Source: Asticcacaulis solisilvae (GTDB lineage: Bacteria; Pseudomonadota; Alphaproteobacteria; Caulobacterales; Caulobacteraceae). From it: 64,000 nucleotides of DNA. The DNA is taken from the NCBI RefSeq assembly GCF_017875235.1, contig NZ_JAGGMI010000004.1, forward strand, positions 1-64,000, written 5' to 3'. Position numbers and translations under genes: made by a program. How positions within the stretch are numbered: the first letter of the stretch is position 1; the number at the start of each line of letters is the position of its first letter. The notes beneath the pieces are model-generated. The model was not told the origin of the DNA and searched no databases. It saw only the letters and a program-made list of their open reading frames with translations. Of the stretch, positions 13,607-41,334 are shown in pieces.

Positions 13607-15799
13607 CTATTGGCGCGCCCATTTGACGGGCTTGCGCCCCATCACGACTTCCAGGCGTCCGCCTTTCATAATGTCGGCCTGACGGATGAAGGCGCGGTCA
13701 AGCGGCGCGCCGTTCAGGGTCGCCTTCTGGATATAGATCGCGTCCGGGCCGCTGTTACGCGCCAGGATCTCGAAGGTCTTGCCGTTCTCAAGGTGGATGT
13801 CGGTGCGTGGCTGGCGCGGTCCGTGGATGTAGAACAGGTCGCTGCCCAGCTTCGGGAAAAGCCCGATGCGGTTGAAGACATAGTGCGAGCTCATGGCGCC
13901 ATTGTCCTCGTCGCCCGGATAGGCGTTTGCCGTGAAGCGGCGGAAAATCTGGTCCGCCCAGTAGGCGGACAGGTCCGGCCGGCCGACCTCATGGAACAGC
14001 CAGGGCGTCGAGAAGGAGGGCTCGTTGGTAATGTCGATGAGGTTGGCCGACAGGGCGTGCTCCAGCCGCTTGCGGAACATGTCCGGGCCGCCCATGGCCG
14101 CGATCATGCCCGGAATATCGTGCAGGATCTGGTAGGAATAGACCCAGGCCGTGCCTTCGTAAAAACCGACATTGTCGTAGGTGACCCCGTCCCAGCCAAT
14201 CTTCGGGTCGAGGTCCTGGAACGCACCGTCGGCGTATTTGGGAATGATGAAGCCGCTGAAGCCGTCACTGGCGGCGTCAGGGTTCCACACCTTGCGCCAG
14301 TTTTTCGAACGCTCCATCAGGAACGCCTGGGCGTCCGCCTGACCGACCTTGCCAGCGACCTGGGCGGCGAAGTAGTCGTTCAGCGCGAAACCGATCGTCG
14401 ACGAGCCCGATTTGGCCCGTTGGTTGTTCGGTTCCGGGCTGCGATCCCCGACCGCGAAATAACCGTCGACCAGATAGCGCGGACGGCGGCGTTCAAGCGC
14501 GTTGAACTGCACGACCTTCCATGCCGCCTGCCAGTCCACGCCCTCGACGCCGCGCAGCAGGCCCTCACCGATGACATTGTCCACCTCGTCGCCGCCCTGG
14601 CCGACATGATAGTTGCGGCCGGCGATGATGGCGGTATCGGCTGCGCCGAACTTGTCGAAGGTGTGGACGATCGAAGCGATGTTGGCAGCATATGCCTTCG
14701 GCTTGATCAGGGACAGCAGCGGGAATTCCGTCCGGTAGGTGTCCCAGAGCGTATAGTAGTCATCCCAGTTCGGTGCATGCAGTTCGGAATCCGGCTGGTC
14801 GACGCTGCGGTCGCGCGGCTGGATCGCCGTGTGGTAGAGAGCGGTATAGAAACGGCGCTGATCGCCTTCCGGCACGCCAGCAATCTCGATCCGGCCGAGT
14901 TCCGCATTCCACTTCGATCGCGCCGACTGTTGGACCGCATTGAAATCCCAGTCTGGAATGTCGCGGTCGAGCAGCGCCTGGGCGCGCTCGGCGCTGGTAA
15001 AGGAGACCGCGACCTTCATCAGTACGGGCTTGTCAGGCGCCGCCGCGAACGACCACCAGGCGCCGAGACGCTCGTCCGGACCGCTCTTTCCAGTCGTTGC
15101 CCCCTCCAGGACCTCGCCGTTCTTGAACACGCCCCACGCCTGAGGCTTGGTATCGATCTGGCCGACGAACCAGATATCGACCTTGGCCGGGTTCCAGTAG
15201 CCCTTGGCCTTGACCCTACCGACGATCCGGCCTTCGGCGGGATAGAGGGTGACCTCGGCATTGTCGCTGGCCGTGACGCCCAGGATCTTACGCGTGATAT
15301 CGAAGACGACGTTGGCTTGGTCGGTCTTCGGGTAGGTCAGGCGATAGAGGGCGGCATGGTGCGCCGGCGTCACCTCCACGCGGGTATCGTAACGCGTCAA
15401 TCTAACGGAATAGAGGTCGGCGGCCGCGCGCTCCTCGGCCTTCGGCGACAGGTGCGACGCTTCGTCGAACTCGGGCCGGCCGACCTGCGGCGAAACGAGG
15501 AATGTGCCATAGGTGGTGACACCGCCCGACCCTTGCGTATGCAGCTGCGCGAATCCGCTGATGTCCGCCTGCGGGTCGTAACCGGCATTGCTGCCCTTCA
15601 CGGTCTGCGGGCTGGGGTGGATCGAGCCGTGCGGCAGTGCCGGACCGGGCACTGTATCGCCTTCGTTATTGTTGCCTACGCCGACCATCGGATCGACATA
15701 GGTGTAGAGCGGACCTTGCGCCGCGCCGGCGGGCGTGACGGCCAGGGCGAACAGGCCAGAAACAAACAGGGCTGAAGCGAACATCACGGCGGATTTCAT
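13607..15799 (-). CDS. GH92 family exo-alpha-mannosidase
   Basis: A 730-residue exported glycosidase with a signal peptide cleaved after AGA. The N-terminal stretch YVDPMVGVGNNNEGDTVPGP and later segments GGDEVDNVIGEG and NRIGLFPKLGSDLFYIHGP are typical of GH92, calcium-dependent exo-acting alpha-mannosidases. It is the fourth gene of the minus-strand unit ibpA-iatA-iatP-GH92, 76 bases after the permease, so it is probably co-expressed with the inositol transporter. This linkage of an alpha-mannosidase with inositol uptake is one basis for the inositol-glycan proposal. Linkage specificity cannot be told from the sequence. Confidence 0.9.
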   Translation of the reverse strand: MKSAVMFASALFVSGLFALAVTPAGAAQGPLYTYVDPMVGVGNNNEGDTVPGPALPHGSIHPSPQTVKGSNAGYDPQADISGFAQLHTQGSGGVTTYGTFLVSPQVGRPEFDEASHLSPKAEERAAADLYSVRLTRYDTRVEVTPAHHAALYRLTYPKTDQANVVFDITRKILGVTASDNAEVTLYPAEGRIVGRVKAKGYWNPAKVDIWFVGQIDTKPQAWGVFKNGEVLEGATTGKSGPDERLGAWWSFAAAPDKPVLMKVAVSFTSAERAQALLDRDIPDWDFNAVQQSARSKWNAELGRIEIAGVPEGDQRRFYTALYHTAIQPRDRSVDQPDSELHAPNWDDYYTLWDTYRTEFPLLSLIKPKAYAANIASIVHTFDKFGAADTAIIAGRNYHVGQGGDEVDNVIGEGLLRGVEGVDWQAAWKVVQFNALERRRPRYLVDGYFAVGDRSPEPNNQRAKSGSSTIGFALNDYFAAQVAGKVGQADAQAFLMERSKNWRKVWNPDAASDGFSGFIIPKYADGAFQDLDPKIGWDGVTYDNVGFYEGTAWVYSYQILHDIPGMIAAMGGPDMFRKRLEHALSANLIDITNEPSFSTPWLFHEVGRPDLSAYWADQIFRRFTANAYPGDEDNGAMSSHYVFNRIGLFPKLGSDLFYIHGPRQPRTDIHLENGKTFEILARNSGPDAIYIQKATLNGAPLDRAFIRQADIMKGGRLEVVMGRKPVKWARQ

Positions 15800-15875
15800 G
15801 GTCTTGTTCCTGAGACGCGGCCGGTGCGAACGGCCCGCGGAAATTCGGATGGCAACGCCGGGCAGCGTTACCGGC

Positions 15876-16856
15876 TTATGCCTTGCCCCGGTGGGACTTG
15901 GCGTAGACGTCGAAGGCGACAGCGGCGACGATGATCAGGCCGATCACCACCTGCTGGAAGTAGGACGAGACGTGCATGATCACGAGGCCGTTCGACAGCA
16001 CGCCGATCAGGAGCGCGCCGATCAGGGTGCCGCGGATGCTGCCGGAGCCGCCGGACAGGCTGGCGCCGCCGATGACGACGGAGGCGATGACGCGCAGCTC
16101 GTAATTTACCCCGGCGACGGCTTCGGCGGAGCCCAGCCGCGCCGCCAGCAGAAACCCGGACAGGCCGGCCAGGACACCGACGATGACATAGACACTGACG
16201 ATGACGGCCTTGACGTCCACGCCGGACAGGCGGGCGGCCTCGGCATTGCCGCCGACAGCGTAGACCTGACGGCCATATCGCGTATGACGCAGGACGATGT
16301 GCCCTAAAAGCGCGACCACGGCGAAGATGATGACCGGCACCGGTACGCCCAGCACATTGCCGGTCCCCCACCAGCGAAAGCCGTCATCGAAGCCCGATAT
16401 GGGCCCGCCGTCGTTGAGGATCAGCGTGGCTCCACGCCAGACGGTCATTCCGCCCAGGGTGACGATAAAGGCGGGCACCTTGAGCCAGGTCACGCATTTG
16501 CCGTGCAGAAACCCCGCCGCCAGGCCGATCAGCGACGCAACGCCGAGCCCGGTCAGCCATTCGGGAACGGCGCCTCCCAGGTGCTGGATGATCCAGGCCG
16601 CGGCAATGGCGGCAAAGGCCAGGAGCGAGCCCACGGCAAGGTCGACGCCCGCCGTCAGGATGACGAAGGTCATGCCGACCGCGATCACGCCGTAGATCGA
16701 CACCTCGGTCAGGATGTTCACGGCGTTACGGACCGAGAGAAACCGCGGGTTCCAGGCGGCGAAGACGGCGATCAGCAGCAGCAGGAACAGCGTGGTGCCC
16801 CAGGTGCGCAGAAAACCCACCGTGTCAAAAGGCGGTCGGTCGGTCGATGCGGTCAT
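15876..16856 (-). CDS. iatP: inositol ABC transporter permease
   Basis: A 326-residue permease of the ribose/inositol (RbsC-like) family with about ten hydrophobic segments. The family segment GVDLAVGSLLAFAA is near residue 75 and NAEAARLSGVDVK is in the second half. I chose the ATG at 16856 (MTASTDRPPF), preceded by AGGAAAG; the longer reading overlaps iatA. Together with the dual ATPase and the lipoprotein encoded upstream it forms a carbohydrate-uptake type ABC importer. Assignment to inositol follows the iol genes nearby and the known Caulobacter ibpA-iatA-iatP system. Confidence 0.87.
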   Translation of the reverse strand: MTASTDRPPFDTVGFLRTWGTTLFLLLLIAVFAAWNPRFLSVRNAVNILTEVSIYGVIAVGMTFVILTAGVDLAVGSLLAFAAIAAAWIIQHLGGAVPEWLTGLGVASLIGLAAGFLHGKCVTWLKVPAFIVTLGGMTVWRGATLILNDGGPISGFDDGFRWWGTGNVLGVPVPVIIFAVVALLGHIVLRHTRYGRQVYAVGGNAEAARLSGVDVKAVIVSVYVIVGVLAGLSGFLLAARLGSAEAVAGVNYELRVIASVVIGGASLSGGSGSIRGTLIGALLIGVLSNGLVIMHVSSYFQQVVIGLIIVAAVAFDVYAKSHRGKA

Positions 16857-16872
16857 AATTGTCTTTCCTGTT

Positions 16873-18390
16873 TCATGCGGCCCGGCCGGTCGCCATGAGG
16901 CCCATGAGTGTTTCTTCGTCGGCGGCGCTGCCTTTGACGGTCCCCGCGACCCGTCCCTCGCGGAAGACAACGATGCGGTCGCTCACCGCCATGACCTCGG
17001 GCAATTCCGAGGAGACGACGATCACGCCGACGCCGGTCGCCGCCATGTCGAACAGGACCTGGTGAACATCGGCCTTGGCGCCGACGTCGATGCCGCGCGT
17101 CGGCTCGTCGACGATCAGTATCTTCGGGGATAGCGCCATGCAGCGCGCCAGCAGCACCTTCTGCTGGTTGCCTCCGGACAGGGTGGAAATCGCCACGCCG
17201 TCGTGCGCCATCCGGATATTCAGTCGCTTGCGATAGTCCTCGACCAGCCGCCGTTCCGCTCCCTCGTCCACGAATATGCCCCAGCGTGACAGCCGCCTGA
17301 GGCTGGGCAGGGACAGGTTGTGGCGGATGGAGTGATCGAGGAAGCAGCCCTGCTGCTTGCGGTCTTCGGGCACCAGCGCGATGCCCTCCCTCAGGCCGTC
17401 GCAGGGCGAAACCAGCTGAAGCTTGCGGCCGTCCATCCGTACGGCGCCCGTGTCCATGCGATCGGCGCCGAACAGTATCCTGACCAGGTCGGTACGCCCG
17501 GCCCCGACCAGCCCGGCAAGGCCGACGATTTCACCGGCGCGCACCTCGAACCCGATATCGTGCAGCGAAGTCCCCCTCGCCTCATGCCGGCCGCGCCGGC
17601 GGCTGACGCCTTCGACGCTGAGCAGCACCTCGCCGGCAAGGGTGTGGGCCGGCCGCTTCAGGAACTCGACGTCGCGGCCCACCATCAGGCGGATCATGCC
17701 GTCTATGCCGATGTCCGCGACCCGGCCCGTGGCGACGAACCGGCCGTCGCGCAGGACGGTGTAGGCGTCGCAAATGCTCTTCACCTCTTTCAGGCGGTGC
17801 GTGACATAGATGACCGACACCCCCCGGCCCTTCAGTTCGCGGATGATCCGATGCAGGATGTCGACCTCGCGCGGGCTGAGCGCGGCCGTCGGCTCGTCCA
17901 TCACGATCAGCCTGGCCTGGATCGTCATGGCGCGGGCGATTTCGACCATCTGCTGGTCGGCGACATTCAGCCGGCTGACCTCGATATCAGGGTCGAGGTC
18001 CAGCCCCAGGTCGGTCAGGATGGCCTGAGCATCGGCGCGCATCCGCTTCTGGTCGATCAGTCCAAAGCGTAACGGCTCGCGGCCGAGATACATGTTCTCA
18101 GCGACGGTCAGAAAGGGCTGGAGATTGAACTCCTGGTAGATGGTGACTATGCCGGCCGCCTGGCGCTGGAACGGCGTATCGCCCGGCCGCAATACCTTGT
18201 CCTGGAAGGTCAGCGTGCCAGCGTCGCAGGCCTGCGCTCCCGCCAGGATCTTCAGGAGGGTCGACTTGCCGGCGCCGTTTTCCCCGAGCAACGCGTGCAC
18301 CTCGCCGGCTTCGACGGACAGGCGCGCACCATCCAGCGCCAGCACGCCGGGGAAGCGCTTGGACACATCCTGTATCGCCAGCAAAGCCAT
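16873..18390 (-). CDS. iatA: inositol ABC transporter ATPase, two ABC domains
   Basis: A 505-residue protein with two ABC cassettes, typical of the ribose/xylose/inositol importers. The first has Walker A GENGAGKST (about residue 36), Walker B-like VMDEPTAALS and the degenerate signature LNVADQQMVEIARA. The second has the usual degenerate P-loop GLVGAGRTD, signature LSGGNQQKVLLARC and IVDEPTRGIDVGAKAD. It sits between the binding-protein and permease genes, 26 and 16 bases from them. It energises uptake of the sugar or cyclitol. Confidence 0.92.
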   Translation of the reverse strand: MALLAIQDVSKRFPGVLALDGARLSVEAGEVHALLGENGAGKSTLLKILAGAQACDAGTLTFQDKVLRPGDTPFQRQAAGIVTIYQEFNLQPFLTVAENMYLGREPLRFGLIDQKRMRADAQAILTDLGLDLDPDIEVSRLNVADQQMVEIARAMTIQARLIVMDEPTAALSPREVDILHRIIRELKGRGVSVIYVTHRLKEVKSICDAYTVLRDGRFVATGRVADIGIDGMIRLMVGRDVEFLKRPAHTLAGEVLLSVEGVSRRRGRHEARGTSLHDIGFEVRAGEIVGLAGLVGAGRTDLVRILFGADRMDTGAVRMDGRKLQLVSPCDGLREGIALVPEDRKQQGCFLDHSIRHNLSLPSLRRLSRWGIFVDEGAERRLVEDYRKRLNIRMAHDGVAISTLSGGNQQKVLLARCMALSPKILIVDEPTRGIDVGAKADVHQVLFDMAATGVGVIVVSSELPEVMAVSDRIVVFREGRVAGTVKGSAADEETLMGLMATGRAA

Positions 18391-18416: not shown

Positions 18417-19379
18417 CTATTTGACTTCGGAAATGCGCGAGGCCGCGGCCAGGTTATCCTTGGTGATCAGGACGGGCGTCAGGCTCCTGGACTGTATTGC
18501 TTCCTGGCGTTTCAGATGGCCGACGACGGCGCGCAGGGCGGTGCGAACCTGCTCACCCGGATTTTGTTCGACGGTCGCGGCCATTTCACCGGCCTTGATA
18601 CGCGCCAGGGCTTCGGGGATGGCGTCGAAGCCCAGAACCTGGACGCGCTTGCCGGAAATGCCGGCGCTGTGAATGGCTTCGAGCGCGCCCATGGCCATGT
18701 CGTCGTTGAGACAGAGGATCACGTCCGGCTGGGTCTGCCCCATGGAGGTCAGGATGTTCTGCGTGACGCTGAGGGCCTGGTCGCGCTTCGAATTGCCGGT
18801 CTGCTCGGCGACGATGCGGAAGGCCGCGCCGCCGGCTTTCAGTCCCTCATGCACGCCCTTGACACGCTCGATCGACGACGAACTGCCGGGGTCATTGGTG
18901 ATGATGGCCACCCTGGCCCCTTGCGGGTAGGTCCTGACGACCCAGTCCGCCATGGCGCGGCCGCCGGCGACATTATCGGCCCCGAAATGCGGGACCGGCG
19001 TCCTGGCGCCGGAAATCTGCCGGTCGACCGACACGACGGTCACACCGTCCTGGACAAGCGCATCGGCGGCGGAGGCCAGCGCGCGCGAGTCGGTCGGCGC
19101 GACGATCACGGCCCTGATGCCCTGGATCCGCGCCGCTTCGAGGTCCGATACCTGCTTGGAGGAATTGTTCTGGCCGTCCAGAACCTGGACCTTCACGCCC
19201 AACTGCTTCGCCTCGTCCTCCAGCTCGCGGCGCATGGCCACGAAGAAGGGCTGCGACAGGTCGCTGAAGCTGACCACAACCGTATTGGCATCCGGCGCCG
19301 GGGCCGCGGAACAGCCCGAAAGCAGATGAACTCCCAGCATGGCGCTGGCCCACAGCAGCGTGCGGCGGTTGAATGGCAT
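18417..19379 (-). CDS. ibpA: periplasmic inositol-binding protein (lipoprotein)
   Basis: A 320-residue periplasmic binding protein of the RbsB-like family. The N terminus is a lipoprotein signal, with lipobox LLSGC at residues 19-23. Ligand-binding stretches of the family are visible: SFSDLSQPFFVAM near residue 37, VIVAPTDSRALA and VSVDRQI around residues 90-120, and CLNDDMAMGALEAI. It is the first gene of ibpA-iatA-iatP-GH92. The 95-base region upstream has both a GGAAT-N4-ATTCC site and an AATTG-N6-CAATT-type site, so two regulators probably control it. Whether it binds free inositol or an inositol glycoside is open. Confidence 0.85.
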   Translation of the reverse strand: MPFNRRTLLWASAMLGVHLLSGCSAAPAPDANTVVVSFSDLSQPFFVAMRRELEDEAKQLGVKVQVLDGQNNSSKQVSDLEAARIQGIRAVIVAPTDSRALASAADALVQDGVTVVSVDRQISGARTPVPHFGADNVAGGRAMADWVVRTYPQGARVAIITNDPGSSSSIERVKGVHEGLKAGGAAFRIVAEQTGNSKRDQALSVTQNILTSMGQTQPDVILCLNDDMAMGALEAIHSAGISGKRVQVLGFDAIPEALARIKAGEMAATVEQNPGEQVRTALRAVVGHLKRQEAIQSRSLTPVLITKDNLAAASRISEVK

Positions 19380-19407: not shown

Positions 19408-19423
19408 AATTGTTCGACCAATT
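19408..19423. promoter_or_regulatory. UxuR/ExuR-like operator upstream of ibpA
   Basis: AATTGTTCGACCAATT, a near-perfect inverted repeat 29 bases upstream of the ibpA start. It matches sites before the TonB receptor (24462), GH89 (40303) and the GntR regulator (40480), with consensus AATTGKNNNRCCAATT. The family resembles the published UxuR/ExuR operator AATTGGTATACCAATT. Confidence 0.65.
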
Positions 19424-19441: not shown

Positions 19442-19455
19442 GGAATTTTTATTCC
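19442..19455. promoter_or_regulatory. candidate IolR operator upstream of ibpA
   Basis: GGAATTTTTATTCC, perfect arms within the longer TTGGAAT-TTTT-ATTCCAA (19440-19457). It is the best copy of a GGAAT-N4-ATTYC motif found at every inositol promoter in the window. The RpiR-family regulator at 33753-34634 is the likely ligand. Confidence 0.65.
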
Positions 19456-19474: not shown

Positions 19475-20986
19475 TCAGCTCATGGTCGGAATAACGAAGC
19501 TTTGATCGGTGACGACATCGCCCCGGGGCCATTTCTGCGTGACAGTCTTGACCCGGGTATAGAAGCGCACGCCGTCCATGCCGTATTGGTTCAGGTCACC
19601 GAAACCCGAGCGCTTCCATCCACCGAAACTGTGATAAGCGACCGGCACCGGGATGGGCACATTGATGCCGACCATCCCCACCTCGACCCGGCTGGCGAAG
19701 TCGCGCGCCGCCTCGCCATTGCGCGTGAAGATGGCGACGCCATTGCCGTAGGCGTGGCGGCTCGGCAGTTGAATGGCCTCGTCCAAAGTCCGCGCCCGAA
19801 CCATCTGCAGCACGGGACCGAATATCTCGTCCTGATAGGACTTCATGTGCGGCTTGACGTAATCGAAGAGCGTTGGCCCCAGGAAATAGCCGCCTTCGGA
19901 CCCTTGCAGGCTGAAGCCCCGGCCATCCAGCACCAACTCGGCGCCTTCATCGACCCCCATCTGGATATAGTCCTCGATACGCGCCTTGTGCGCCGCCGAG
20001 ACGACCGGGCCGAAGTGCGCTTCCGCGTCGGTGGATACGCCGACGCGCAGCGCCTCAGCGGCGGCGACCAGCCGTGGACGCAGGGCTTCGGCGGTCTTGT
20101 CCCCCACCGGAACGACGACGGGCAGGGCCATGCAGCGCTCGCCCGCCGATCCGTAGGCCGCGCCCATGATATCCGCCACGGCCTGATCGAGATCCGCGTC
20201 CGGCAAGACAATGCCGTGGTTCTTTGCGCCGCCCATGCATTGCATGCGCTTACCCGAGGCCGCGCCCTTCTGGTATACGTACTGTGCGATATCCGACGAG
20301 CCGACGAAGCTGACGGCCCGGATGTCCGGATGGTCGAGGATGGCGTCGACCGCCACCTTGTCGCCCTGGACCACATTCAAAACACCCTCCGGCAGACCGG
20401 CCTCGATCAGCAGCTCGGCCAGGCGCACCGGCACGCTGGGATCACGCTCCGAAGGTTTCAGGATGAAGGCGTTGCCGCACGCCAGCGCCGGGGCCAGCAT
20501 CCATAGCGGGATCATGGCGGGGAAGTTGAACGGCGTGATGCCGGCCACCACGCCCAGGGGCTGGCGCATGGAATAGACGTCTATGCCCGGGCCCGCGCCT
20601 TCGGTGTATTCCCCCTTGAGGAGGTGCGGGATGCCGCAGGCGAATTCGACGACGTCGAGGCCGCGCTGGATGTCCCCCTTCGCATCGGAAATCACCTTGC
20701 CGTGCTCGGACGCCAGCAGGTGCGCCAACGGCTCCATGTCCCGTTCCAGCAGGCGCTTGAATTCAAACAGGACCCGCGCGCGCCGCTGCGGATTGATCGC
20801 CGCCCATGCCGGCTGGGCCTTACGCGCCGAGGCAACCGCGGCCGCCACGACAGAGGCTTCGCCGAGCTCGACCTGGGCCTGCGTCAGACCGGTATTGGGA
20901 TCGAAGACTTTTCCGAGCCGTGAACCGTCCACAGACTGCCGTCGACCGTCGATGAAATGTGCAACCTGGCGCATCGGAATCCCCAT
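19475..20986 (-). CDS. iolA: methylmalonate-semialdehyde dehydrogenase (CoA-acylating)
   Basis: A 503-residue aldehyde dehydrogenase of the MmsA/IolA family. It has the cofactor region ITPFNFPAMIPLW, the catalytic Cys in GSAGERCMAL and the characteristic C-terminal INVPIPVPVAYHSFGGWK. In inositol catabolism it converts malonate semialdehyde to acetyl-CoA. The start is ambiguous: the ATG at 20986 has no clear ribosome binding site, while the ATG at 20974 follows GGGGA. It is transcribed divergently from the GH115 gene. Two GGAAT-N4-ATTYC-type sites lie at its 5' end, and the ibpA unit follows after a 95-base promoter region. Confidence 0.9.
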   Translation of the reverse strand: MGIPMRQVAHFIDGRRQSVDGSRLGKVFDPNTGLTQAQVELGEASVVAAAVASARKAQPAWAAINPQRRARVLFEFKRLLERDMEPLAHLLASEHGKVISDAKGDIQRGLDVVEFACGIPHLLKGEYTEGAGPGIDVYSMRQPLGVVAGITPFNFPAMIPLWMLAPALACGNAFILKPSERDPSVPVRLAELLIEAGLPEGVLNVVQGDKVAVDAILDHPDIRAVSFVGSSDIAQYVYQKGAASGKRMQCMGGAKNHGIVLPDADLDQAVADIMGAAYGSAGERCMALPVVVPVGDKTAEALRPRLVAAAEALRVGVSTDAEAHFGPVVSAAHKARIEDYIQMGVDEGAELVLDGRGFSLQGSEGGYFLGPTLFDYVKPHMKSYQDEIFGPVLQMVRARTLDEAIQLPSRHAYGNGVAIFTRNGEAARDFASRVEVGMVGINVPIPVPVAYHSFGGWKRSGFGDLNQYGMDGVRFYTRVKTVTQKWPRGDVVTDQSFVIPTMS

Positions 20987-21009
20987 TCTATTTTCGGAAT
21001 GATTATTTC
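20976..21009. promoter_or_regulatory. two tandem candidate IolR operators between iolA and GH115
   Basis: GGAATCCCCATTCT (20976-20989, one arm imperfect) and GGAATGATTATTTC (20996-21009) are spaced exactly 20 bases apart. The first overlaps the iolA start region. A third dyad, ATTGC-catt-t-GCAAT (21014-21028), follows. These could control iolA and the divergent GH115 gene together. Confidence 0.5.
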
Positions 21010-21116
21010 ATAATATTGCCATTTGCAATAATTGTTTTATATCTGGCCTGCCCATTGAGGCGGCGAGACTGCGCGTCAGAATGACCGGAAACCGGGACAG
21101 TACAGGGACAAATCAG

Positions 21117-33752: not shown

Positions 33753-34634
33753 CTAGTTGTCGTGTTCCTGGCTGGCAAACGCATAAGAGATCACAAGACT
33801 CTGGACGAGACAGAGGGTCGCGGTGAGCGACCGGAAGGAGCGCACCTCGGCATCCCGGACAAGCAGGACCTGCCCGGACCCCTTGACCAGTGGGGAGACG
33901 TTCGAATCCGTAATGGACAGGATCGGCGCCCCACGTTCCAGCGCGATGGCGTGGCACTTGACCGTCTCCTCGGCATAGGGCCGGAAGCTGATGGCGATGA
34001 GAAGGTCGTCGGGCTGGATGCCGCGAATCTGATTCGCCCATAATCCGCCGGTGCCGTCGATAAAGCATGTGCGCTTGCCGGCGCGTTGCAGCGCGTAGGC
34101 CAGGTATGACGCGGGCGGGAAGGCGCGCCGGAAACCGGCGATATAGACCGTGCTGGCCTGGGCGATCGCCGCATTGGCTTCGCGTATCTGGGCGGCGCTG
34201 ATCGACTGGCGCAAATGATTGAGCGACACCAGGTCCGCTTCGACATATTCCCCCAGGATATTGTCCGTCGCGCCGTCCGCCTCGCCGCTGGCCGCCGTGA
34301 ACTGCCGCGCACGCTCGCCATAGGCCAGCGTCATATGGTTGGCGAGAAGCTCGTCCCGGATCACCTTCTGCATCTGCGAGGCGCCGGGATAGCCCAGGAT
34401 CTTGGCGAACCGGACGATGGCCGAAGGCTGGACATCCGCACGTTCCGCGATCACGGCCAGCGTTTCGAAGGCGACGTCCTCCGGCTTGTCCAGGACAAAG
34501 GTCGCCACCTGCTTCATACGCCTGGACAGGTCTTCATATACCTGGACGATCGTCGACCTCAGGGTCTCAAGGGTGTCCGGCGCCTCAACCGTGGTATCAG
34601 GATCGCCATCCTCGCCTAACATATCTGCGCTCAT
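33753..34634 (-). CDS. iolR: RpiR-family transcriptional regulator of inositol catabolism
   Basis: A 293-residue RpiR-type regulator. It has an N-terminal helix-turn-helix domain (about residues 25-100; FETLAVIAERADVQPSAIVRF) and a C-terminal SIS sugar-phosphate-binding domain (VYIAGFRRAFPPASYLAYAL; LLIAISFRPYAEETV). RpiR-family IolR proteins repress inositol genes in Sinorhizobium and Caulobacter. It lies directly upstream of iolCDEB and is divergent from iolG. A GGAAT-N4-ATTCC-type site 21 bases before its start suggests autoregulation. Confidence 0.88.
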   Translation of the reverse strand: MSADMLGEDGDPDTTVEAPDTLETLRSTIVQVYEDLSRRMKQVATFVLDKPEDVAFETLAVIAERADVQPSAIVRFAKILGYPGASQMQKVIRDELLANHMTLAYGERARQFTAASGEADGATDNILGEYVEADLVSLNHLRQSISAAQIREANAAIAQASTVYIAGFRRAFPPASYLAYALQRAGKRTCFIDGTGGLWANQIRGIQPDDLLIAISFRPYAEETVKCHAIALERGAPILSITDSNVSPLVKGSGQVLLVRDAEVRSFRSLTATLCLVQSLVISYAFASQEHDN

Positions 34635-34654: not shown

Positions 34655-34740
34655 AGAATTCTTATTCCAAGCTTGCGGCTTGACTTTAGTATGATAACCG
34701 TAACATCATAAAATCATTCCAACAATGGAATAAAAATTTC
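34655..34740. promoter_or_regulatory. two candidate IolR operators in the iolR-iolG divergent region
   Basis: AGAATTCTTATTCC (34655-34668), within TTAGAAT-TCTT-ATTCCAA, and GGAATAAAAATTTC (34727-34740). A further dyad ATTCCA-acaa-TGGAAT (34716-34731) overlaps the second. A TTGACT (34680-34685) between them is a possible iolG -35 box, with no clear -10. Confidence 0.6.
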
Positions 34741-34774: not shown

Positions 34775-35758
34775 ATGATGGACATCGCGGTTATCGGCGC
34801 CGGGCGTATCGGCCGTATCCACGCCAGGAACGTTTTCGATCATCCGCTGCTGCGCCTGCATTCCATCGTCGATCCGGTCGGCGACAACGCCCAGACCCTC
34901 GCGCAGGAGTTGGGGGCGAGCGTGAGCACGTTCGACAGCGTGCTGAGCGACCCGTCGGTCAAGGGGATCGTCATCGCCTCACCGACCGACCAGCACCTCG
35001 ACCAGACGCTGAAGGCCGTCGCCGCGGGCAAGGCCGTCCTGTGCGAAAAGCCCATCGACCAGAGCCTGGCCACGGCCAGGAGCGCCGCCGGCGCGCTGGG
35101 CGGCGACAAGCCCTTGCTGCTCGGCTTCAACCGCCGCTTCGACAGACACTTCGGCGCATTGAAGGCGCAGCTTGCCGATGGACGGATCGGGGTATTGGAA
35201 AGCGTTTCGATCATAAGCCACGACCCGGCACCGCCACCGATCGCCTATGTCAAGGTCTCGGGCGGCCTGTTCAAGGACATGGCGATCCACGACTTTGACA
35301 TGGCGCGGTTTCTGCTTGGCGAGGAACCCTCGGAAGTTTTCGCCAGCGCGTCCTGCCTGGTCGATCCGGGCATCGGCGCCGCCGGTGACGTCGATACGGC
35401 AAAGACCGTGCTGAAGACGCCGTCGGGCAGGATCTGCGTCATCAGCAATTCGCGCCGGTCCGGTTACGGCTACGACCAGCGGATCGAGGCCTATGGCTCG
35501 AAGGGCCTTTTGAAGGCCGACAACGTCCTGGAATCCACGGTTTCGCACTGGGGCGAAAGCGGCCCGGCGCTCGATTCGCTCCAGAACTTCTTTCTCGACC
35601 GCTATGCCGAAGCCTACCGCACGGAAATGAACCATTTCGCCGACATTCTTGCCGGCAAGGCCAAGCCCCTTGTCGGCTATGACGATGCCGTCCGCGCCCT
35701 GGCCCTGGCCGAAGCCGCCGCGGAATCGGTCGCCTCAGGCCAGGTCGTCAAACTGTAG
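34775..35758 (+). CDS. iolG: myo-inositol 2-dehydrogenase
   Basis: A 327-residue Gfo/Idh/MocA-family oxidoreductase. The Rossmann motif GAGRIGRIHARN is at residues 8-19, the catalytic Lys is in CEKPID (near residue 94), and the Asp/His pair is in AIHDFDMARFLLG near residue 173. It oxidises myo-inositol to 2-keto-myo-inositol with NAD+, the first step of the pathway. It is divergent from iolR. AGGAG precedes the double ATG; the second ATG is an equally possible start. Confidence 0.9.
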   Translation: MMDIAVIGAGRIGRIHARNVFDHPLLRLHSIVDPVGDNAQTLAQELGASVSTFDSVLSDPSVKGIVIASPTDQHLDQTLKAVAAGKAVLCEKPIDQSLATARSAAGALGGDKPLLLGFNRRFDRHFGALKAQLADGRIGVLESVSIISHDPAPPPIAYVKVSGGLFKDMAIHDFDMARFLLGEEPSEVFASASCLVDPGIGAAGDVDTAKTVLKTPSGRICVISNSRRSGYGYDQRIEAYGSKGLLKADNVLESTVSHWGESGPALDSLQNFFLDRYAEAYRTEMNHFADILAGKAKPLVGYDDAVRALALAEAAAESVASGQVVKL

Positions 35759-35777
35759 GGCCGGCGAGAGGACGGCG

Positions 35778-36746
35778 TTACTTTACCGGTCCGACGCCTT
35801 CTTTTGTTGGCGTCACCAGGTTGATGGTGCCGTCCGGATTGTAGGTCATCTCCTCGATGGCGATCGACCGCTTGTGATCGCCGCCGCCCGGCAGCAGCTT
35901 GTTGTGGTAGAACAGGAAGGACCGCCCCTTCCGCTCCAGGATAGCCTGGTGATTGGTGCTGATCGGCAGGTAGTCGAGGATGACACCGCGATAGGTATAA
36001 GGCCCGATGGGGGAGGTCGAAGTCGCATAGACGATCTGCCCCGGCCATCCGGTCGAGAAGCTGAAATAATAAAGTCCGTTGCGCTTATGCAGGAAGGGCG
36101 CCTCGCCATATTTCTTCTTGGGGTCCTCCGCCGGGAAGCCTGTAATCTTCAGATCTTCGATCGGCCCGTCCAGGTGGATCATGTCGCGTTTCAGCTTGAC
36201 GATCTTGGGGACGCGGGTGCCGAAAAGCATGTAGGCCTGGCCGTCGTCATCGACAAAAACAGCGGGATCGATCGGTTCGGCGCCGACATTGGTATCGCGG
36301 GCCTTGTCGACCAGGGCGTCGGACCGCGCGTCCACGTACGGCCCTTCCGGTCTCTTGCTGACGGCCACGCCTATCTTGTCCTGTCCAACCGGGGCATAGA
36401 AATAGTATTTGCCGTTACGATAGGCGGCTTCCGGCGCCCAGGCCTTGGCGGTCGGCTTTGCCCATTTGAACACCGTGACCGACAGGAAGGAGCCGTCGTC
36501 CGTCCAGTGCGCCATGTCATCCGAACTGAAGAGGCGCCAGTCCGTCGAATCCCAGTCTTTGCCGGAATTGTCCTGGTCATTCGTCGCGTAGACATAGTAC
36601 CGCCCCTTGAAATAGTGCGGCGACGGATCGGCGTTGAAGCGCGTCGAAATGGGGTTTTCGGCCTGCGCGCCCGGCGCGGACGCCAGCGCAAGGAATGCGG
36701 CGGCTGCCGCTGGCAGGCAAAAACCGCTGAAAATGCGAAGCGTCAT
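35778..36746 (-). CDS. GH43 family glycosidase (arabinofuranosidase/xylosidase type)
   Basis: A 322-residue exported protein with a signal peptide cleaved after GAQA, followed by a five-bladed beta-propeller domain of GH43. The catalytic base is likely the Asp of FNADPSPHYF, the second Asp that of IDPAVFVDDDG, and the catalytic acid the Glu of KYGEAPFLHKRN. Members remove arabinofuranose, xylose or galactose side residues; specificity cannot be told. It is the third gene of the GH89-acetyltransferase-GH43 unit, 88 bases after the acetyltransferase. A degenerate ATTGTCTGACTAAA (36763-36776) lies in that gap. Confidence 0.85.
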   Translation of the reverse strand: MTLRIFSGFCLPAAAAAFLALASAPGAQAENPISTRFNADPSPHYFKGRYYVYATNDQDNSGKDWDSTDWRLFSSDDMAHWTDDGSFLSVTVFKWAKPTAKAWAPEAAYRNGKYYFYAPVGQDKIGVAVSKRPEGPYVDARSDALVDKARDTNVGAEPIDPAVFVDDDGQAYMLFGTRVPKIVKLKRDMIHLDGPIEDLKITGFPAEDPKKKYGEAPFLHKRNGLYYFSFSTGWPGQIVYATSTSPIGPYTYRGVILDYLPISTNHQAILERKGRSFLFYHNKLLPGGGDHKRSIAIEEMTYNPDGTINLVTPTKEGVGPVK

Positions 36747-36834: not shown

Positions 36835-37953
36835 CTACAGCTTGATGATGATGTTGCGCCGATCCATGACGAGACCCAGCAGCCAGCACACCAGCATGTA
36901 GGCAATGGCGCAGACCAGAGACCCGAGCGCGCCGGGCAGGACGGCCTGGAACAGGTGAATACCGATCCAGTCGTAAAGGCCAAGACCATCGACCGGAATG
37001 AGCTGCAAGGTGGTTACCAGCAGTTCGGAAAACAGGTAGATGACCAGGGGGTTCTTGCCGAAGATTTCGAAGAACCGCGTCCCATCGCTCCGGTTCGCCA
37101 GGTCGACATAGCTGATCAGCGCCCCCAGCAGCACCAGGTCGATACCTATGGTCAGCAGGGCGAAGGAACTGGTCCACAGGCGCTTGGCAAGCGGAAAACC
37201 GAGGCTCCAGACCAGACTCAGCACGATCGCGGCCGCCCCCCCGATCAGCAGGTTGCGCACCAGCCGGGCCTTGTCCGCGCTGCGCGTGATGTAAAGACCG
37301 GCCAGGTAACCGGCGATGACGTTCACAATCGCCGGCAGCGTGCTCAGCAAGCCCTCTGGATCGTAGCCATGCCCCTTCTTGTACATGTGCGGCAGGCCCA
37401 GGACGGCCTGGTCCACCAGGGCGCCGGCATTGCCGAGCGGGGTGAGTTCCCGGCCGGGAACGCCAAACGCGAGCAGAATGCCCCAATAGCCAAGCAGAAG
37501 GGCGACGCAAAGCGTCACAAGGTATCTGACCGACAGGTAGCGGCAGGCGATGGCGGCTGCGCCATAACACAGGGCGATCCGTTGCAGGACGCCCATGATG
37601 CGCGTTTCTCCGATGGGATTGAACGCCCAGCCGCCGCCGGGCAGCGGATGCACGAAGGGATACCAGTACATGAGGTAGCCCAAAAGGAAGATCAGCGCGG
37701 TCCGTCTGGCCACCTTGAGCAGATAGTCCCTGTTGGATACGCCCGGGCGCATGGCGAAGCACATGGCGTTGCCCACCGCGAACAGGAAGGACGGAAAGAC
37801 GGCGTCCGCCAGGGTGAAGCCGAACCATTTGGCGTGCTGCAGGGTCGCGAACGGCTCCGCGCCGGCCCCGGCGGTATTGACGACGATCATGACGCAGACC
37901 GTCAGGCCGCGAAACACGTCCAGGGCTTTATTGCGGGCCGGCTTCATCCGCAC
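36835..37953 (-). CDS. transmembrane heparan-alpha-glucosaminide N-acetyltransferase-like protein
   Basis: A 372-residue membrane protein with about ten hydrophobic segments. It matches the HGSNAT/YeiB-like (DUF5009) family: RNKALDVFRGLTVCVMIVVN at the N terminus, then LQHAKWFGFTLADAVFPSF, which carries the His corresponding to the active-site His269 of human HGSNAT (KHASWNGLTVADLVFPWF). A YDPEGLLSTLPAIVN segment is also shared. Human HGSNAT passes acetyl groups from cytoplasmic acetyl-CoA to terminal alpha-glucosamine on the other side of the membrane, so that NAGLU (GH89) can cleave. Here the gene overlaps the GH89 gene by 10 bases. The same two-step job in the periplasm is a strong inference from pairing. 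Confidence 0.82.
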   Translation of the reverse strand: MRMKPARNKALDVFRGLTVCVMIVVNTAGAGAEPFATLQHAKWFGFTLADAVFPSFLFAVGNAMCFAMRPGVSNRDYLLKVARRTALIFLLGYLMYWYPFVHPLPGGGWAFNPIGETRIMGVLQRIALCYGAAAIACRYLSVRYLVTLCVALLLGYWGILLAFGVPGRELTPLGNAGALVDQAVLGLPHMYKKGHGYDPEGLLSTLPAIVNVIAGYLAGLYITRSADKARLVRNLLIGGAAAIVLSLVWSLGFPLAKRLWTSSFALLTIGIDLVLLGALISYVDLANRSDGTRFFEIFGKNPLVIYLFSELLVTTLQLIPVDGLGLYDWIGIHLFQAVLPGALGSLVCAIAYMLVCWLLGLVMDRRNIIIKL

Positions 37954-40247
37954 ACCTTCAGAAGCGCCGCCGCATCGGCCAGAGGATCCGAGGGGACATA
38001 GCGACTGTAGGCCGTGTCGGCCGTGACCCAGTCATGCTCCCACGCGGTGATCCTGGCCGTGAACGCCGCCTGATCGAAGGGCGTTTTCGCCTCAACCGAC
38101 CGGCGCAGCTCCGCCAGGAATTGCGTCCAGCGCGGCAGGTAGAAGCCGGCGTACATACCCTGCCAGGCCTTGGACGCATAGTCGTTGAGATTGCCCTTTC
38201 CACCCCACACCGACACCTGCGCCTTGGCGTTCGCGACGTAATAGGCGCGCTCCGCCGGCGTGTCCCCGTAGGCGCGCGCGTCGGCGATCCACGTCGCCAG
38301 GGTTTCCTGCTGCCCGCCGATCAGCGCATCCACGCCAAGCGCAAGGACCTTGATACGCGAGGCGAGATCGTCTCCACGGGCCAGATCGCCCGCGGCATAG
38401 GCCGACACCGCCGCCTGTAGGCAGGCGTCCAGTTCTCCGCTGACGAAGTGGCAGGTCGCGGCGACGACATCGTTCTGGAACAGCGTGGATGCGCCAAACG
38501 CCGGCCCCAGGTTCAGCAGCCCTTTGATCGCCTTGCGCAACAGGGCGCGATCGCCGGGCGCGCCCTCAAACTCGGTAACATCAACGGTCGGCCGCTTGAA
38601 GAACAGATAGGCTCCCGCCCGGCTTCTCCACCATCGCGGGGTCCAGTAGCGTGTCTTGTAAACGGCCGATGCCAGGTCGCTCCACGCCGCCGTCAGCGCC
38701 GGCGAAGACTTTCCGTAGCGCGCCCGCGTATAGCCTGCCAGCCATTGGTGGACCGAGGCTTTTCCTTCATCCCAGGCCAGGTCGTAAAGATATTCATACA
38801 CGACCGAATTGTTGTGCAGGCCCTCCGGAAAGACGCCGAACCCCTTCAAATTACGGGTTTGCGCATTCTGCTCAAGCGCCGTCACGTCGCGGCGGTAGAA
38901 GTCGAGGTCGCCATAGACCGGGTTCGACCCGCCGTAATTGTGGACGTAGCCATAGATCCACGACTTGCCCTTGAAGGCCTCGGCGCGCGTCCAGACGTCC
39001 GGATAACGATCGTTGCCGATATCCAGGACCATGAGCCTGTCGTCGGGAACGCGGCTCAGGAAGGCATCGATGGCCTCGCTGGTCCAGAAGGCCTTGTCGG
39101 CGCCGAACAGCCAGCCCTGCATCACCCAGACGGCGTCCGGTTGCGCCTGGCGGATCGAATCATAGAGGGCCAAGCCGTAGTCGGCGAGGCGCGCGGCCTT
39201 TAGGGCAGGATCGACCTCGGCGGCCGCCTCGGCATTGGCGGTCGCATCGCCGTAGCTGGCCTTGGCGGCATCCGAGCCGTCGGCGGCGACCGGCGGCAGC
39301 ATCTCGTTGAACGAGTCCGCCAGATAGTATTGCCCGGGCCCGTAGGTCCGGGTGTACAGCGCGATGAAGCGTCCCGCCAGCTTGGCGAACAAGGGATCGG
39401 CCGGGTCAAGCCAGTAGGTTTCGTGAAATCCCTCCCAGGCCCGCATCCGATAGATCCGCGCGTCCGGATGCTTCTCGGCGAATGCCTTGGGGACATAGCC
39501 CCCGAAGGCCGGCAGGATCGGTGTCATGCCCAGGGCGCGCATCTGCCCGAGAATACGGACCTGCAGGGCGCGTTTCTTTTCGATCCAGGCCTGCGGCAAC
39601 GGGGCGTCATAACCTTCGATGTTGCCCATGCGCTGCCAGGGCGTGAAGGCCGGCCCCGAGAAGTAGCCTGACAACTCCTCTTCGCTTAAGCCCTGTTCGC
39701 GCCAAAGGGCCTGCCAGACGAACTCCTGGCCCTCCATGGCGAGCGGCATGTCGATGCCGTGCAGCGCCATCCAGTCGATTTCACGCTGCCAACGCGCCCA
39801 TCCCCACCAGGGCGTCGTATAGCCGAAGGTGCAGGTGTTCATATAGACGCGGTGCCCGAAACGGGCCTCGACGCGGCCGCCCGCAGTCTCCGGCCATCGG
39901 GCAGGCATCCCCGCGCGGCTTCCTTCCCAACTGACCTGCGCCAGTCCGTTTGATTTGAGGTAGCTGTAGACACCCCGCGTCACGGCAACGGCGCTCGATC
40001 CTTCAACCTCCAGCTGCCCGTCCCGCACCGCGACCTTGTACCAGGGCGTCCGGGTTTGTCCCGAAACGACGCGCAAGGAAATGTCCGCCGCACGTTTACC
40101 GACCAGCCGCCGCACGACGGCGCCGGCCTCTTGCCCTGCGGCTCTTGCCCAGCCCGGCAGCGTCATCGCACCGGCCAGGCCCGCGAATCCCATGCCCTGG
40201 ATAATGGCCTGACGCCGCGAGACGGTCTTGGACATGAGCGTTTCCAT
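37944..40247 (-). CDS. GH89 family alpha-N-acetylglucosaminidase
   Basis: A 767-residue enzyme of GH89 (NAGLU family). The N terminus has a Tat-type signal (SRRQAIIQGMGFAGLAGA). Family hallmarks are YMNTCTFGYTTPWWGWARW split around residue 140, REIDWMALHGIDMPLAMEGQEFVWQ, and the catalytic Glu in DSFNEMLPP. GH89 enzymes remove terminal alpha-linked N-acetylglucosamine, as in heparan sulfate breakdown. It is the first gene of a unit with the HGSNAT-like acetyltransferase and GH43. An UxuR/ExuR-like operator lies 56 bases upstream. An ATG at 40235 is an alternative start. Confidence 0.92.
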   Translation of the reverse strand: METLMSKTVSRRQAIIQGMGFAGLAGAMTLPGWARAAGQEAGAVVRRLVGKRAADISLRVVSGQTRTPWYKVAVRDGQLEVEGSSAVAVTRGVYSYLKSNGLAQVSWEGSRAGMPARWPETAGGRVEARFGHRVYMNTCTFGYTTPWWGWARWQREIDWMALHGIDMPLAMEGQEFVWQALWREQGLSEEELSGYFSGPAFTPWQRMGNIEGYDAPLPQAWIEKKRALQVRILGQMRALGMTPILPAFGGYVPKAFAEKHPDARIYRMRAWEGFHETYWLDPADPLFAKLAGRFIALYTRTYGPGQYYLADSFNEMLPPVAADGSDAAKASYGDATANAEAAAEVDPALKAARLADYGLALYDSIRQAQPDAVWVMQGWLFGADKAFWTSEAIDAFLSRVPDDRLMVLDIGNDRYPDVWTRAEAFKGKSWIYGYVHNYGGSNPVYGDLDFYRRDVTALEQNAQTRNLKGFGVFPEGLHNNSVVYEYLYDLAWDEGKASVHQWLAGYTRARYGKSSPALTAAWSDLASAVYKTRYWTPRWWRSRAGAYLFFKRPTVDVTEFEGAPGDRALLRKAIKGLLNLGPAFGASTLFQNDVVAATCHFVSGELDACLQAAVSAYAAGDLARGDDLASRIKVLALGVDALIGGQQETLATWIADARAYGDTPAERAYYVANAKAQVSVWGGKGNLNDYASKAWQGMYAGFYLPRWTQFLAELRRSVEAKTPFDQAAFTARITAWEHDWVTADTAYSRYVPSDPLADAAALLKVCG

Positions 40248-40302
40248 TTCAAATGTAACCCCTGGAGACCTTGACGCGGGTCACGCAGGTCGGCTTGGGC
40301 CA

Positions 40303-40318
40303 AATTGGCGGGCCAATT
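40303..40318. promoter_or_regulatory. UxuR/ExuR-like operator upstream of GH89
   Basis: AATTGGCGGGCCAATT, with arms extending to AAATTGG/CCAATTT. It is 56 bases upstream of the GH89 start and matches the receptor site at 24462 in 14 of 16 bases. Confidence 0.7.
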
Positions 40319-40479
40319 TGGCATACGGTATGTCATTGTCACGTTTAGCATGAAAATTCAAAACTATTTTTTTATAGAAAAATTGTGCCAAATCGGCGAA
40401 GGTCATATTCAGCATTACGGAACCGGCGGATGCACGGCGGACTGTGACTGTGCCCTGTTACCGGATATCCACCTTGAAA

Positions 40480-40493
40480 ATTGTGGAACCAAT
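40480..40493. promoter_or_regulatory. UxuR/ExuR-like operator upstream of the GntR regulator
   Basis: ATTGTGGAACCAAT, inside AATTGTGGAACCAATT (40479-40494), 77 bases before the regulator start. It fits the AATTGKNNNRCCAATT consensus and suggests autoregulation. Confidence 0.55.
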
Positions 40494-40569
40494 TAAATAT
40501 AGTCGGAATTGATCGTTAAGTCCGCTGCCCGCGGCTACCGGGCTTTCAATCGAGGCAGGACAGAGGCTG

Positions 40570-41334
40570 ATGCCAATCTTGGGAAATAAACTTCTGAACC
40601 TCATCGATGCCGACAAGGATGCCCGTCCGTACCAGATCGTCGGCAATGCCTTGCTGGAGCGTATCCGCGCCGGCGAATTCCGCGCCAGCGGAAAACTGCC
40701 CCCCGAGCGCGAACTGGCGGAAGCCTATGACGTCGGACGCGCGGTCATTCGTGACGCACTGGTCATGCTCGAGGTCAAGGGACTGATCCAAAGCCGCCAG
40801 GGTTCTGGAATCTATATCACTCTGAAAGCCTATGACAGCCAGCCCGCTGTTTCGTCAGGCAAGATGGCCCCGGCGGGCGGACCGCTCGAATTGCTGTCCG
40901 CCCGGCAACTGATCGAAAGCCAGATTGCGCGCCAGGCCGCGATCCATGCCACTGAAACGGATATTCAGCGTATCGAGGACGCGTTCGCGCTGCATAATAC
41001 GGCGCCCGACACACAGCCACGCGACGAGTTGGACCGGGCCTTCCACATCGCCATAGCGCTGGCCACCCAGAATCCGGAACTCGCGGTCGTCGTGGCGCAG
41101 CTTTGGGAGCGCCGGCAACATCACACCTTCTGGACCGGTCACAACATACGTCTCAATACGTTTCAGCATTGCGAGCGCTGGGCGGAAGACCACCATCGGA
41201 TCGTGGAAGGGATACGGCGACACGACGGCGATGCCGCCTATGTCGCCATGTGGCAGCACATTGAAAATGTGAAGCAGTTCTTCATGGGTAACGCGACCCC
41301 TCAGGCCGACAGGCGCGGCATGAAGCGTAAATAG
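40570..41334 (+). CDS. GntR/FadR-family transcriptional regulator, UxuR/ExuR-like
   Basis: A 254-residue regulator with an N-terminal winged helix (about 20-85; GKLPPERELAEAYDVGRAVIRDALVMLEVKGLIQSRQGSG in pieces) and a C-terminal FCD ligand domain (His in RAFHIAIA and AEDHHRIVEGI). FCD-type regulators of the UxuR/ExuR group sense hexuronates or their products. The AATTGG-N4-CCAATT-like sites near this gene and at GH89, the TonB receptor and ibpA fit that group. The likely role is to induce the glycan genes when a uronate is released. Ligand assignment is inference. Confidence 0.82.
   Translation: MPILGNKLLNLIDADKDARPYQIVGNALLERIRAGEFRASGKLPPERELAEAYDVGRAVIRDALVMLEVKGLIQSRQGSGIYITLKAYDSQPAVSSGKMAPAGGPLELLSARQLIESQIARQAAIHATETDIQRIEDAFALHNTAPDTQPRDELDRAFHIAIALATQNPELAVVVAQLWERRQHHTFWTGHNIRLNTFQHCERWAEDHHRIVEGIRRHDGDAAYVAMWQHIENVKQFFMGNATPQADRRGMKRK

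Follow-up and report, generated by a model that had tools for sequence, protein, structure and literature searches.

A candidate locus for the use of plant inositol sphingolipid head groups in Asticcacaulis solisilvae, joining inositol catabolism to exported glycosidases and a TonB receptor

Of the described systems that we found, two come nearest: the myo-inositol module of Caulobacter crescentus and the PUSI locus of Flavobacterium johnsoniae. The former, as set out in the main text of PMC2597717, has the inositol operator GGAA-N6-TTCC, and shares with the locus reported here its iol genes, ATP-binding cassette (ABC) transporter, inositol regulator and operator sequence. The latter, according to passages of PMC8115612, combines SusCD, a PF16670 phosphoinositide phospholipase C (PI-PLC) and a calcineurin-like phosphodiesterase, and resembles our G426 and G280 loci in its described gene content. 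N-acetylglucosamine (GlcNAc) clusters of Xanthomonas and some Asticcacaulis are a further point of comparison, the shared genes being a TonB receptor, GH89, HGSNAT and NagR/A/B-like genes. Here we describe a locus at positions 13607-41334 of a 64,000-nucleotide stretch of Asticcacaulis solisilvae (the window, G000:C4:1-64000; host genome 5.0 Mb), in which genes for inositol uptake and catabolism stand among genes for exported glycosidases.

With a probability of roughly 0.7, we judge that this locus takes up glycosylated inositol phosphates, the head groups of glycosyl inositol phosphorylceramides (GIPCs; in plants the predominant sphingolipids), dismantles them and burns the inositol. The basis of this reading is gene content, linkage, operator-like sites and the type of the GH115 enzyme as judged by its sequence. 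An initial annotation of the window had proposed that the locus harvests inositol glycans of the GIPC kind, and the genomic evidence gathered here supports that proposal. The annotation also described the gene content correctly: a complete iol gene set and an inositol transporter are interleaved with GH92, GH115, GH89 and GH43 enzymes, an HGSNAT-like acetyltransferase and a TonB receptor (Table 1). Pfam cut-offs are passed by GH92, GH115, GH43 and GH89, all four of which carry export signals as judged by eye, and NCBIfam cut-offs by IolB, IolC, IolD, IolE, IolG and the methylmalonate-semialdehyde dehydrogenase (MMSDH). One single-strand run holds iolA, the binding protein, the ATPase, the permease and, last, GH92, which had been assigned to the transporter operon from the start (spacings of 95 and 26 bases, an overlap of 98 and a spacing of 76); GH115 diverges from iolA at a distance of 94 bases. 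A second run comprises the RpiR regulator and iolC-D-E-B, with iolG divergent from it, and a third comprises GH89, the HGSNAT-like gene and GH43, divergent from the ExuR-like GntR regulator. The cluster unites a TonB receptor, exported glycosidases and a regulator, the gene content of a glycan utilisation locus, and its iol genes, ABC transporter and RpiR-type regulator are the content of an alphaproteobacterial IolR regulon, the inositol regulator IolR being RpiR-type.

Table 1. Genes and operator-like sites of the locus (window positions)
Feature	Position	Strand	Evidence or remark
GH92 exported alpha-mannosidase	13607..15799	-	PF07971 370 bits, PF17678 176 bits; last gene of iolA-transporter run
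ABC permease, inositol-type, IatP-like by context	15876..16970	-	PF02653
ABC ATPase, IatA-like by context	16873..18390	-	PF00005
Periplasmic sugar-binding protein, IbpA-like by context	18417..19379	-	PF13407 199 bits
ExuR-like palindrome, before transporter-GH92 run	19408..19423		1 mismatch
IolR-type operator GGAATTTTTATTCC	19442..19455		about 60 bases upstream of binding-protein gene
IolA / CoA-acylating MMSDH	19475..20986	-	TIGR01722 649 bits, cut-off 448
Two IolR-type sites, divergent iolA / GH115 promoter	20976..21009		1 mismatch each; first overlaps first bases of iolA
GH115 exported alpha-glucuronidase, not xylan-type by sequence	21081..23942	+	PF15979 408 bits
IolR-type site, before TonB receptor	24243..24256		1 mismatch; GGAATTGACATTCC in relatives
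ExuR-like palindrome, before TonB receptor	24462..24477		exact
TonB-dependent receptor	24559..27630	+	TIGR01782 559 bits, cut-off 310
IolB	28138..28941	-	TIGR04378 331 bits, cut-off 205
IolE	28938..29969	-	TIGR04379 393 bits, cut-off 290; longest frame, true start may lie further in
IolD	29840..31699	-	TIGR04377 905 bits, cut-off 715
IolC kinase fused to DUF2090 (aldolase)	31696..33651	-	NF047869 760 bits, cut-off 600
IolR-type operator GGAATATTTATTCC, before iolC	33696..33709		
RpiR/SIS regulator, IolR-like by context	33753..34634	-	PF01380, PF01418
Two IolR-type sites, between regulator and iolG	34655..34740		1 mismatch each
IolG inositol 2-dehydrogenase	34775..35758	+	TIGR04380 419 bits, cut-off 355
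GH43, exported	35778..36746	-	PF04616 157 bits
HGSNAT/NagX-like transmembrane glucosamine N-acetyltransferase, 372 residues	36835..37953	-	PF07786 32.1 bits, cut-off 22
GH89 exported alpha-N-acetylglucosaminidase	37944..40247	-	PF05089 415 bits, plus N and C domains
ExuR-like palindrome, before GH89 run	40303..40318		exact
ExuR-like palindrome, before ExuR-like gene	40479..40494		1 mismatch
GntR/FCD regulator, nearest ExuR/UxuR	40570..41334	+	PF00392, PF07729; ExuR model 179 bits, below cut-off 396

In the proposed pathway the TonB receptor would take in head groups already released, or lipids already trimmed, and arabinose would be removed by GH43 and mannose by GH92. Glucosamine would be acetylated by the HGSNAT/NagX-like membrane enzyme; HGSNAT-type enzymes acetylate glucosamine across a membrane, and GH89, the enzyme expected to remove alpha-GlcNAc, could therefore act on the unacetylated form of the head group. 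GH115 would then cut alpha-1,2-linked glucuronic acid from inositol, and a phosphatase (in relatives PhoA-type or phytase-like, and encoded near GH115) would free the inositol for import by the ABC transporter and degradation by IolG/E/D/B/C/A. The receptor, the transporter and the glycosidases may be under the shared control of an inositol regulator and a hexuronate-type regulator. The best solved relative of GH92 is 7zgm (226 bits), a match from which linkage specificity could not be told; that of GH89 is 4xwh (385 bits). GH43 is arabinosidase-like by weak matches only, with arabinosidase models below cut-off, and the HGSNAT-like protein matches the HGSNAT structure 8vkj at an expectation value of 1.4e-17 and the NagX model at 161 bits, below its cut-off of 480. 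The window thus has candidate families for arabinose, mannose, glucosamine or GlcNAc, glucuronic acid and inositol, and none for galactose or phosphate. Since the window locus is without GH2, a phosphatase or a phospholipase, the lipid may be cut by an unlinked PI-PLC, by other organisms or not at all.

By its own terms the initial annotation would have been refuted by a survey finding glycosidases and iol genes to be rarely neighbours, and the result was the opposite. Among 149 Caulobacteraceae genomes (GH89 in 31, DUF2090-type IolC in 25, GH115 in 47), GH89 and GH115 are at most 30 kb apart in 21 of the 30 genomes having both (0.83 expected), GH89 and IolC in 8 of 15 (0.20 expected) and GH115 and IolC in 8 of 17 (0.42 expected), where expected figures, here and below, are rough: a single genome size is used for all, contig breaks are ignored and related genomes are not thinned. 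Chance clustering was set aside because the linkage counts lie far above even this rough expectation. IolC joins both GH89 and GH115 in 8 of the 15 genomes having all three, and these same eight genomes, from two genera, account for each IolC linkage: five Asticcacaulis (window genome included) and three Caulobacter, with differing gene orders. In Caulobacter G081 and G104, iolCDEBA is followed on a single strand by GH89 and HGSNAT, and in G072 a second TonB gene stands in between; a GH92 paralogue closes the transporter run in all three Caulobacter, as it does in G039 and G099 of Asticcacaulis. Among Caulobacter in which iol genes are not linked, some (G067, G034, G116; L085, L114, L115) have TonB receptor, GH89, HGSNAT, phytase-like phosphatase and GH115 in one short run. 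Content was tallied for 17 of the 21 linked genomes (G094, G096, G103 and G120 were left out): HGSNAT is found in 17, GH92 in 13, GH43 in 11, GH2 in 9 and GH29 in 6. Of the 17, 10 also have a phosphatase of PhoA or phytase type, the match in G013 being weak (31% identity), and 2 have a D-mannonate dehydratase of ManD type, an enzyme of the glucuronate route. The ABC permease gene family occurs in 6 of 28 mapped regions, the window among them. Outside this survey, the alphaproteobacterial metagenome-assembled genome record L088 carries iolB/E/D/C, iolG and GH89-HGSNAT within about 12 kb. Among named strains, GH89, HGSNAT, the receptor and iol genes were seen in A. biprosthecium C19 and Asticcacaulis sp. 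AC460. Tryptophan-halogenase-like flavoprotein genes were also observed near the TonB receptors of the glycan locus in G131, G123, G107, G013, G072, G089 and G099.

Counterpart loci are present in a second phylum. A GH89 profile scan of named genomes gave 191 loci, of which 80 were kept; among these 80, the combination of GH92, GH89, HGSNAT and GH115 was found in Gaoshiqia, Prolixibacter and three Flavobacterium records, with proteins 27-51% identical to their Caulobacteraceae counterparts. In the three Flavobacterium loci a Ca2+-dependent PI-PLC (PF16670), the sole copy in the genome, lies between HGSNAT and GH115. We then surveyed the family to which Flavobacterium glycines belongs, taken as Flavobacteriaceae; across 395 genomes, PI-PLC was found in 39 (34 full-length), GH115 in 77 (63 strong) and GH89 in 31 (30 strong). 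PI-PLC and strong GH115 are at most 2 kb apart in 14 of the 22 genomes having both (0.04 expected), and GH89 and GH115 at most 30 kb apart in 10 of 16 (0.54 expected). The neighbourhood includes SusCD, a calcineurin-like phosphoesterase and a two-component regulator of the hybrid kind; GH92, GH125, GH28, GH29 or GH3 is present in a subset of the loci. Myo-inositol oxygenase (MIOX) is present in three of the regions examined and adjoins a sodium symporter in two. The search for MIOX covered 74 of these genomes, selected because they carry PI-PLC, GH115 or GH89; it omitted 13 of the 30 genomes with GH89 and one with GH115 only, and the division into two score classes was made once the scores were known. 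Strong-class MIOX occurs in 32 of the 74 and lies at most 30 kb from PI-PLC, GH115 or GH89 in 31 of these 32 (at most 1.24 expected), including a position near PI-PLC in all 14 PI-PLC-GH115 genomes. It was found in none of the 33 tested (of 34) strong-GH115 genomes without PI-PLC and GH89, five of which have a lower-scoring MIOX elsewhere. Overlapping sets of glycosidases therefore stand with two unrelated inositol-burning routes and, in one phylum, also with an enzyme that by its family frees inositol-phosphate head groups, which suggests a similar substrate in both phyla.

These loci taken together offer a candidate family for every head-group unit, namely GH43/GH51, GH2, GH92, HGSNAT with GH89, GH115, a phosphatase or PI-PLC, and Iol or MIOX, as well as GH29 for fucose, a sugar that PMC12201980 lists among those of GIPCs. 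We consider it probable, if with a little less assurance than for the window locus itself, that a cross-phylum guild feeds on plant, perhaps also algal, GIPCs through a shared core of GH115, GH89, HGSNAT, GH92 and phosphatase/PI-PLC plus Iol or MIOX, and that the head group supplies carbon, nitrogen and phosphorus. A different inositol glycolipid could instead be the target, such as glycosylphosphatidylinositol (GPI) anchors, fungal or algal inositol phosphoceramides or lipid-linked mannans, with land-plant GIPC as one of several substrates. The Flavobacteriaceae PI-PLC, pairs of GH92 genes and GH125 would suit alpha-oligomannosyl inositol lipids, some loci are without GH89, and 10 of the 31 MIOX-linked loci are without strong GH115. 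We nevertheless regard this broader target as unlikely, given that GH115 and GH89 occur together in the window and in 20 other linked Caulobacteraceae genomes. An alpha-glucuronosyl residue, which the presence of GH115 implies, is missing from GPI, and for this reason the ranking of GPI anchors as the weaker alternative in the initial annotation holds.

Several features of the Bacteroidota loci are recorded here in their own right. GH28-type proteins at L148:4905-6482 and L135:5842-7419 are 28-29% identical to the Asticcacaulis GH28, and that of Sphingomonas jinjuensis (L111:17255-18874) is 68% identical to it; the nearest models for these proteins are rhamnogalacturonidases, below cut-off. 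A conserved protein of about 600 residues recurs in the loci (L148:1752-3545, L135:2859-4652, L139:5749-7665, L185:17324-19120), with no Pfam match for the L148 and L139 copies and no NCBIfam match for that of L148. A predicted model of the 597-residue protein, with a mean predicted local distance difference test score of 50, suggests helices followed by strands, and no fold is claimed for it. In L185 a short PI-PLC match between GH115 and GH89 (G538:C1:340040-340180) is probably a remnant, that is, the trace of a gene lost from a complete locus. A weak GH115-like protein of about 690 residues beside SusD in the Flavobacteriaceae loci L172, L173, L176, L178, L190 and L191 is possibly a divergent glucuronidase.

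Operator-like sites recur across the window locus. The operator GGAA-N6-TTCC stands exactly before iolC and the transporter, and with one mismatch before iolG (idhA). The exact motif occurs three times in the window against 1.05 expected, a count reached by 10 of 100 shuffles, its third copy lying inside a gene at 60743, and GGAATNNNNATTCC with at most one mismatch has seven matches against 2.15 expected, a number reached by none of 100 shuffles. Six of the seven are intergenic within the locus, and one falls on the start of iolA. A second palindrome, AATTGG-N4-CCAATT, which we take to resemble the ExuR/UxuR operator, occurs four times in the window, always in the locus (0.12 expected; four reached by none of 100 shuffles); this pattern was derived from the window, and its count there is therefore no independent test. 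In a survey of the 600 bases before each gene, which covered the receptor in 14 loci, an IolR-type site precedes the receptor in 6 (0.39 expected) and an ExuR-type site in 9 (0.08 expected), with both in four; when the window is excluded, ExuR-type sites remain in 8 of 13 loci and IolR-type sites in 5 of 13. The exact inositol operator precedes the receptor in G039 and G099, though the distance to iolC is about 235 kb in the first and about 59 kb in the second. For the glycosidases, IolR-type and ExuR-type sites were found before GH115 in 2 and 1 of 13 loci, before GH89 in 0 and 6 of 14 and before GH43 in 0 and 3 of 11, and neither type precedes GH92 in the loci for which 600 bases were taken (G039, where 39 kb were taken, is excluded). 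Candidate inositol-regulator and hexuronate-type-regulator palindromes precede receptor, transporter and glycosidase genes.

The sequence type of GH115 sets the window enzyme apart from xylan-type glucuronidases. It scores 568 bits with BtGH115A (5by3), 443 with 4zmh, 331 with 4c90 and 312 with the xylan alpha-1,2-glucuronidase 7pug; a second copy in the same genome (contig C16), with GH3 and GH43 near it, scores 331 with 5by3, 710 with 4zmh, 659 with 4c90 and 577 with 7pug. These scores led us to reject xylan as the main reading: the window GH115 has its top match in BtGH115A, and the C16 copy has its own in xylan-type enzymes, among which we take 4c90 to act on xylan; a xylan glucuronidase locus would have a GH115 nearest to xylan-active enzymes, and this is not the case for the window protein. 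BtGH115A is also the best match of the genome's C13 copy (632 bits) and of one Flavobacterium and one Caulobacter linked GH115. A tree of 46 GH115 rows, picked from the fetched loci and not from all matches, puts all 39 linked rows in one branch of 42 (100/100), separate from the remaining four rows, one of which is the C16 copy. BtGH115A presumably acts on arabinogalactans, which would suit two or more independent plant-glycan systems, for arabinogalactan or xylan, GlcNAc and inositol, brought together by chance or shared habitat. The XylB and XylA genes at 48053-50838 and the presence of GH51, GH28 and GH31 in some loci point the same way. We consider such a patchwork quite improbable, as the linkage goes far beyond rough expectation in two phyla, with two inositol pathways and PI-PLC, inositol-type operators precede the receptor even where iol genes are distant, and the same genome has its separate xylan-type GH115.

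The resemblance of GH89 and the HGSNAT-like protein to their nearest solved relatives, HGSNAT and alpha-N-acetylglucosaminidase, presumably the human enzymes, also raises the possibility of heparan-like glycosaminoglycan use, in which HGSNAT and NAGLU would act as in the lysosome. This would leave GH115, iol, MIOX and PI-PLC unexplained, and no sulfatase or known glycosaminoglycan lyase was found among the neighbour genes scanned with Pfam, which were part of the genes and included the unmatched 597-residue protein; we give the idea very little credence.

A number of results weigh against GIPC head groups as the target. No phospholipase and no phosphatase is found within 13607-41334, and no head-group-releasing enzyme near GH89 in Caulobacteraceae: PF16670 PI-PLC is present in 85 of the 149 genomes, yet at most 30 kb from GH89 in none of the 25 having both, and G115, G075 and G135 carry a complete iol-linked locus with no PF16670 match. 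The initial annotation had noted that a lipid-releasing phospholipase and glucuronate catabolic genes are missing from the window, which is so; an unlinked PI-PLC, about 180 kb from the locus (G000:C4:221927-222901), UxaC and a ManD-type mannonate dehydratase gene lie elsewhere in the genome, in which UxuA was not found. Its suggestion of an adjacent phospholipase held beside GH115 in loci of the Flavobacterium family and failed near GH89 in Caulobacteraceae. Even among Bacteroidota, PI-PLC was found in only 3 of the 8 genomes first examined and in none of the other five, Gaoshiqia and Prolixibacter included, and GH89 and PI-PLC are at most 30 kb apart in only 3 of the 10 Flavobacteriaceae genomes having both (0.16 expected). 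Linkage is likewise incomplete: 13 of the 21 GH89-GH115 genomes are without linked IolC (6 have it elsewhere, 7 not at all), and of the 31 linked MIOX loci, strong GH115 lies within 30 kb in 21, only a weak GH115-like match in 4 and neither in 6. Of 14 loci, 8 show no IolR-type site ahead of the receptor; six of these 8 do have iol genes (G131, G123, G089, G072, G081, G104), and the other two, G107 and G013, are without IolC. GH89-HGSNAT also occurs in GlcNAc operons without GH115 nearby (Xanthomonas, four Asticcacaulis), and three unlinked GH115 proteins, including the C13 copy, fall inside the linked branch, so that the BtGH115A-like type is not exclusive to inositol-linked loci. GH28 and GH31, present in some loci, match no GIPC sugar that we found described, and the arabinose and galactose of some GIPC preparations may be contaminants (PMC8099651).

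Other genes of the window and host were noted in passing. A partial PI-PLC match lies at G000:C19:11050-11295. Downstream of the locus, a PhoX-type phosphatase behind PutA (45317-47764) could release phosphate, and nothing ties PhoX to the locus; the xylulokinase XylB and xylose isomerase XylA pair would provide the isomerase route for xylose. Positions 337-12177 hold, on one strand, luciferase-like monooxygenases, an NMT1-type binding protein, an ABC transporter, a major facilitator superfamily protein and a TonB receptor, and resemble an organosulfur uptake cluster. An ATP-dependent DNA ligase, a metallo-beta-lactamase-fold protein, an Lhr-type helicase and a phosphoesterase at 51157-57070 probably form a DNA repair cluster.

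GIPCs are called major sphingolipids on Earth in PMC11907402. If the GIPC reading is true, a defined set of enzymes can be assigned to a carbon and phosphorus pool that is large and little studied, the enzymes become tools to take GIPC head groups apart, and plant membrane lipids gain a testable link to root or litter bacteria. No bacterial GIPC utilisation system was found in the open-access literature, searched by titles and abstract openings, with subscription papers and preprints outside the search. We class the locus as a glycan utilisation locus of the TonB type whose target would be the head group of an inositol phospholipid. The GlcNAc clusters of Xanthomonas and some Asticcacaulis differ from it in that no GH115 or inositol genes were seen within about 10 kb. 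BtGH115A and the xylan enzymes share with its glucuronidase the GH115 family, whereas here the gene context is inositol-linked and the sequence is nearest BtGH115A and not the xylan enzymes. PUSI, in the passages of PMC8115612 that describe it, is induced by phosphate starvation and is without carbohydrate-active enzymes, whereas the loci described here add GH115, GH92, GH89 or MIOX. The words mannosidase and glycosyl do not occur in the main text of PMC2597717, which describes the C. crescentus module. As far as we have seen, neither of these two nearest systems joins glycosidases to inositol use, whereas in the present locus exported glycosidases and a TonB receptor join the inositol genes.

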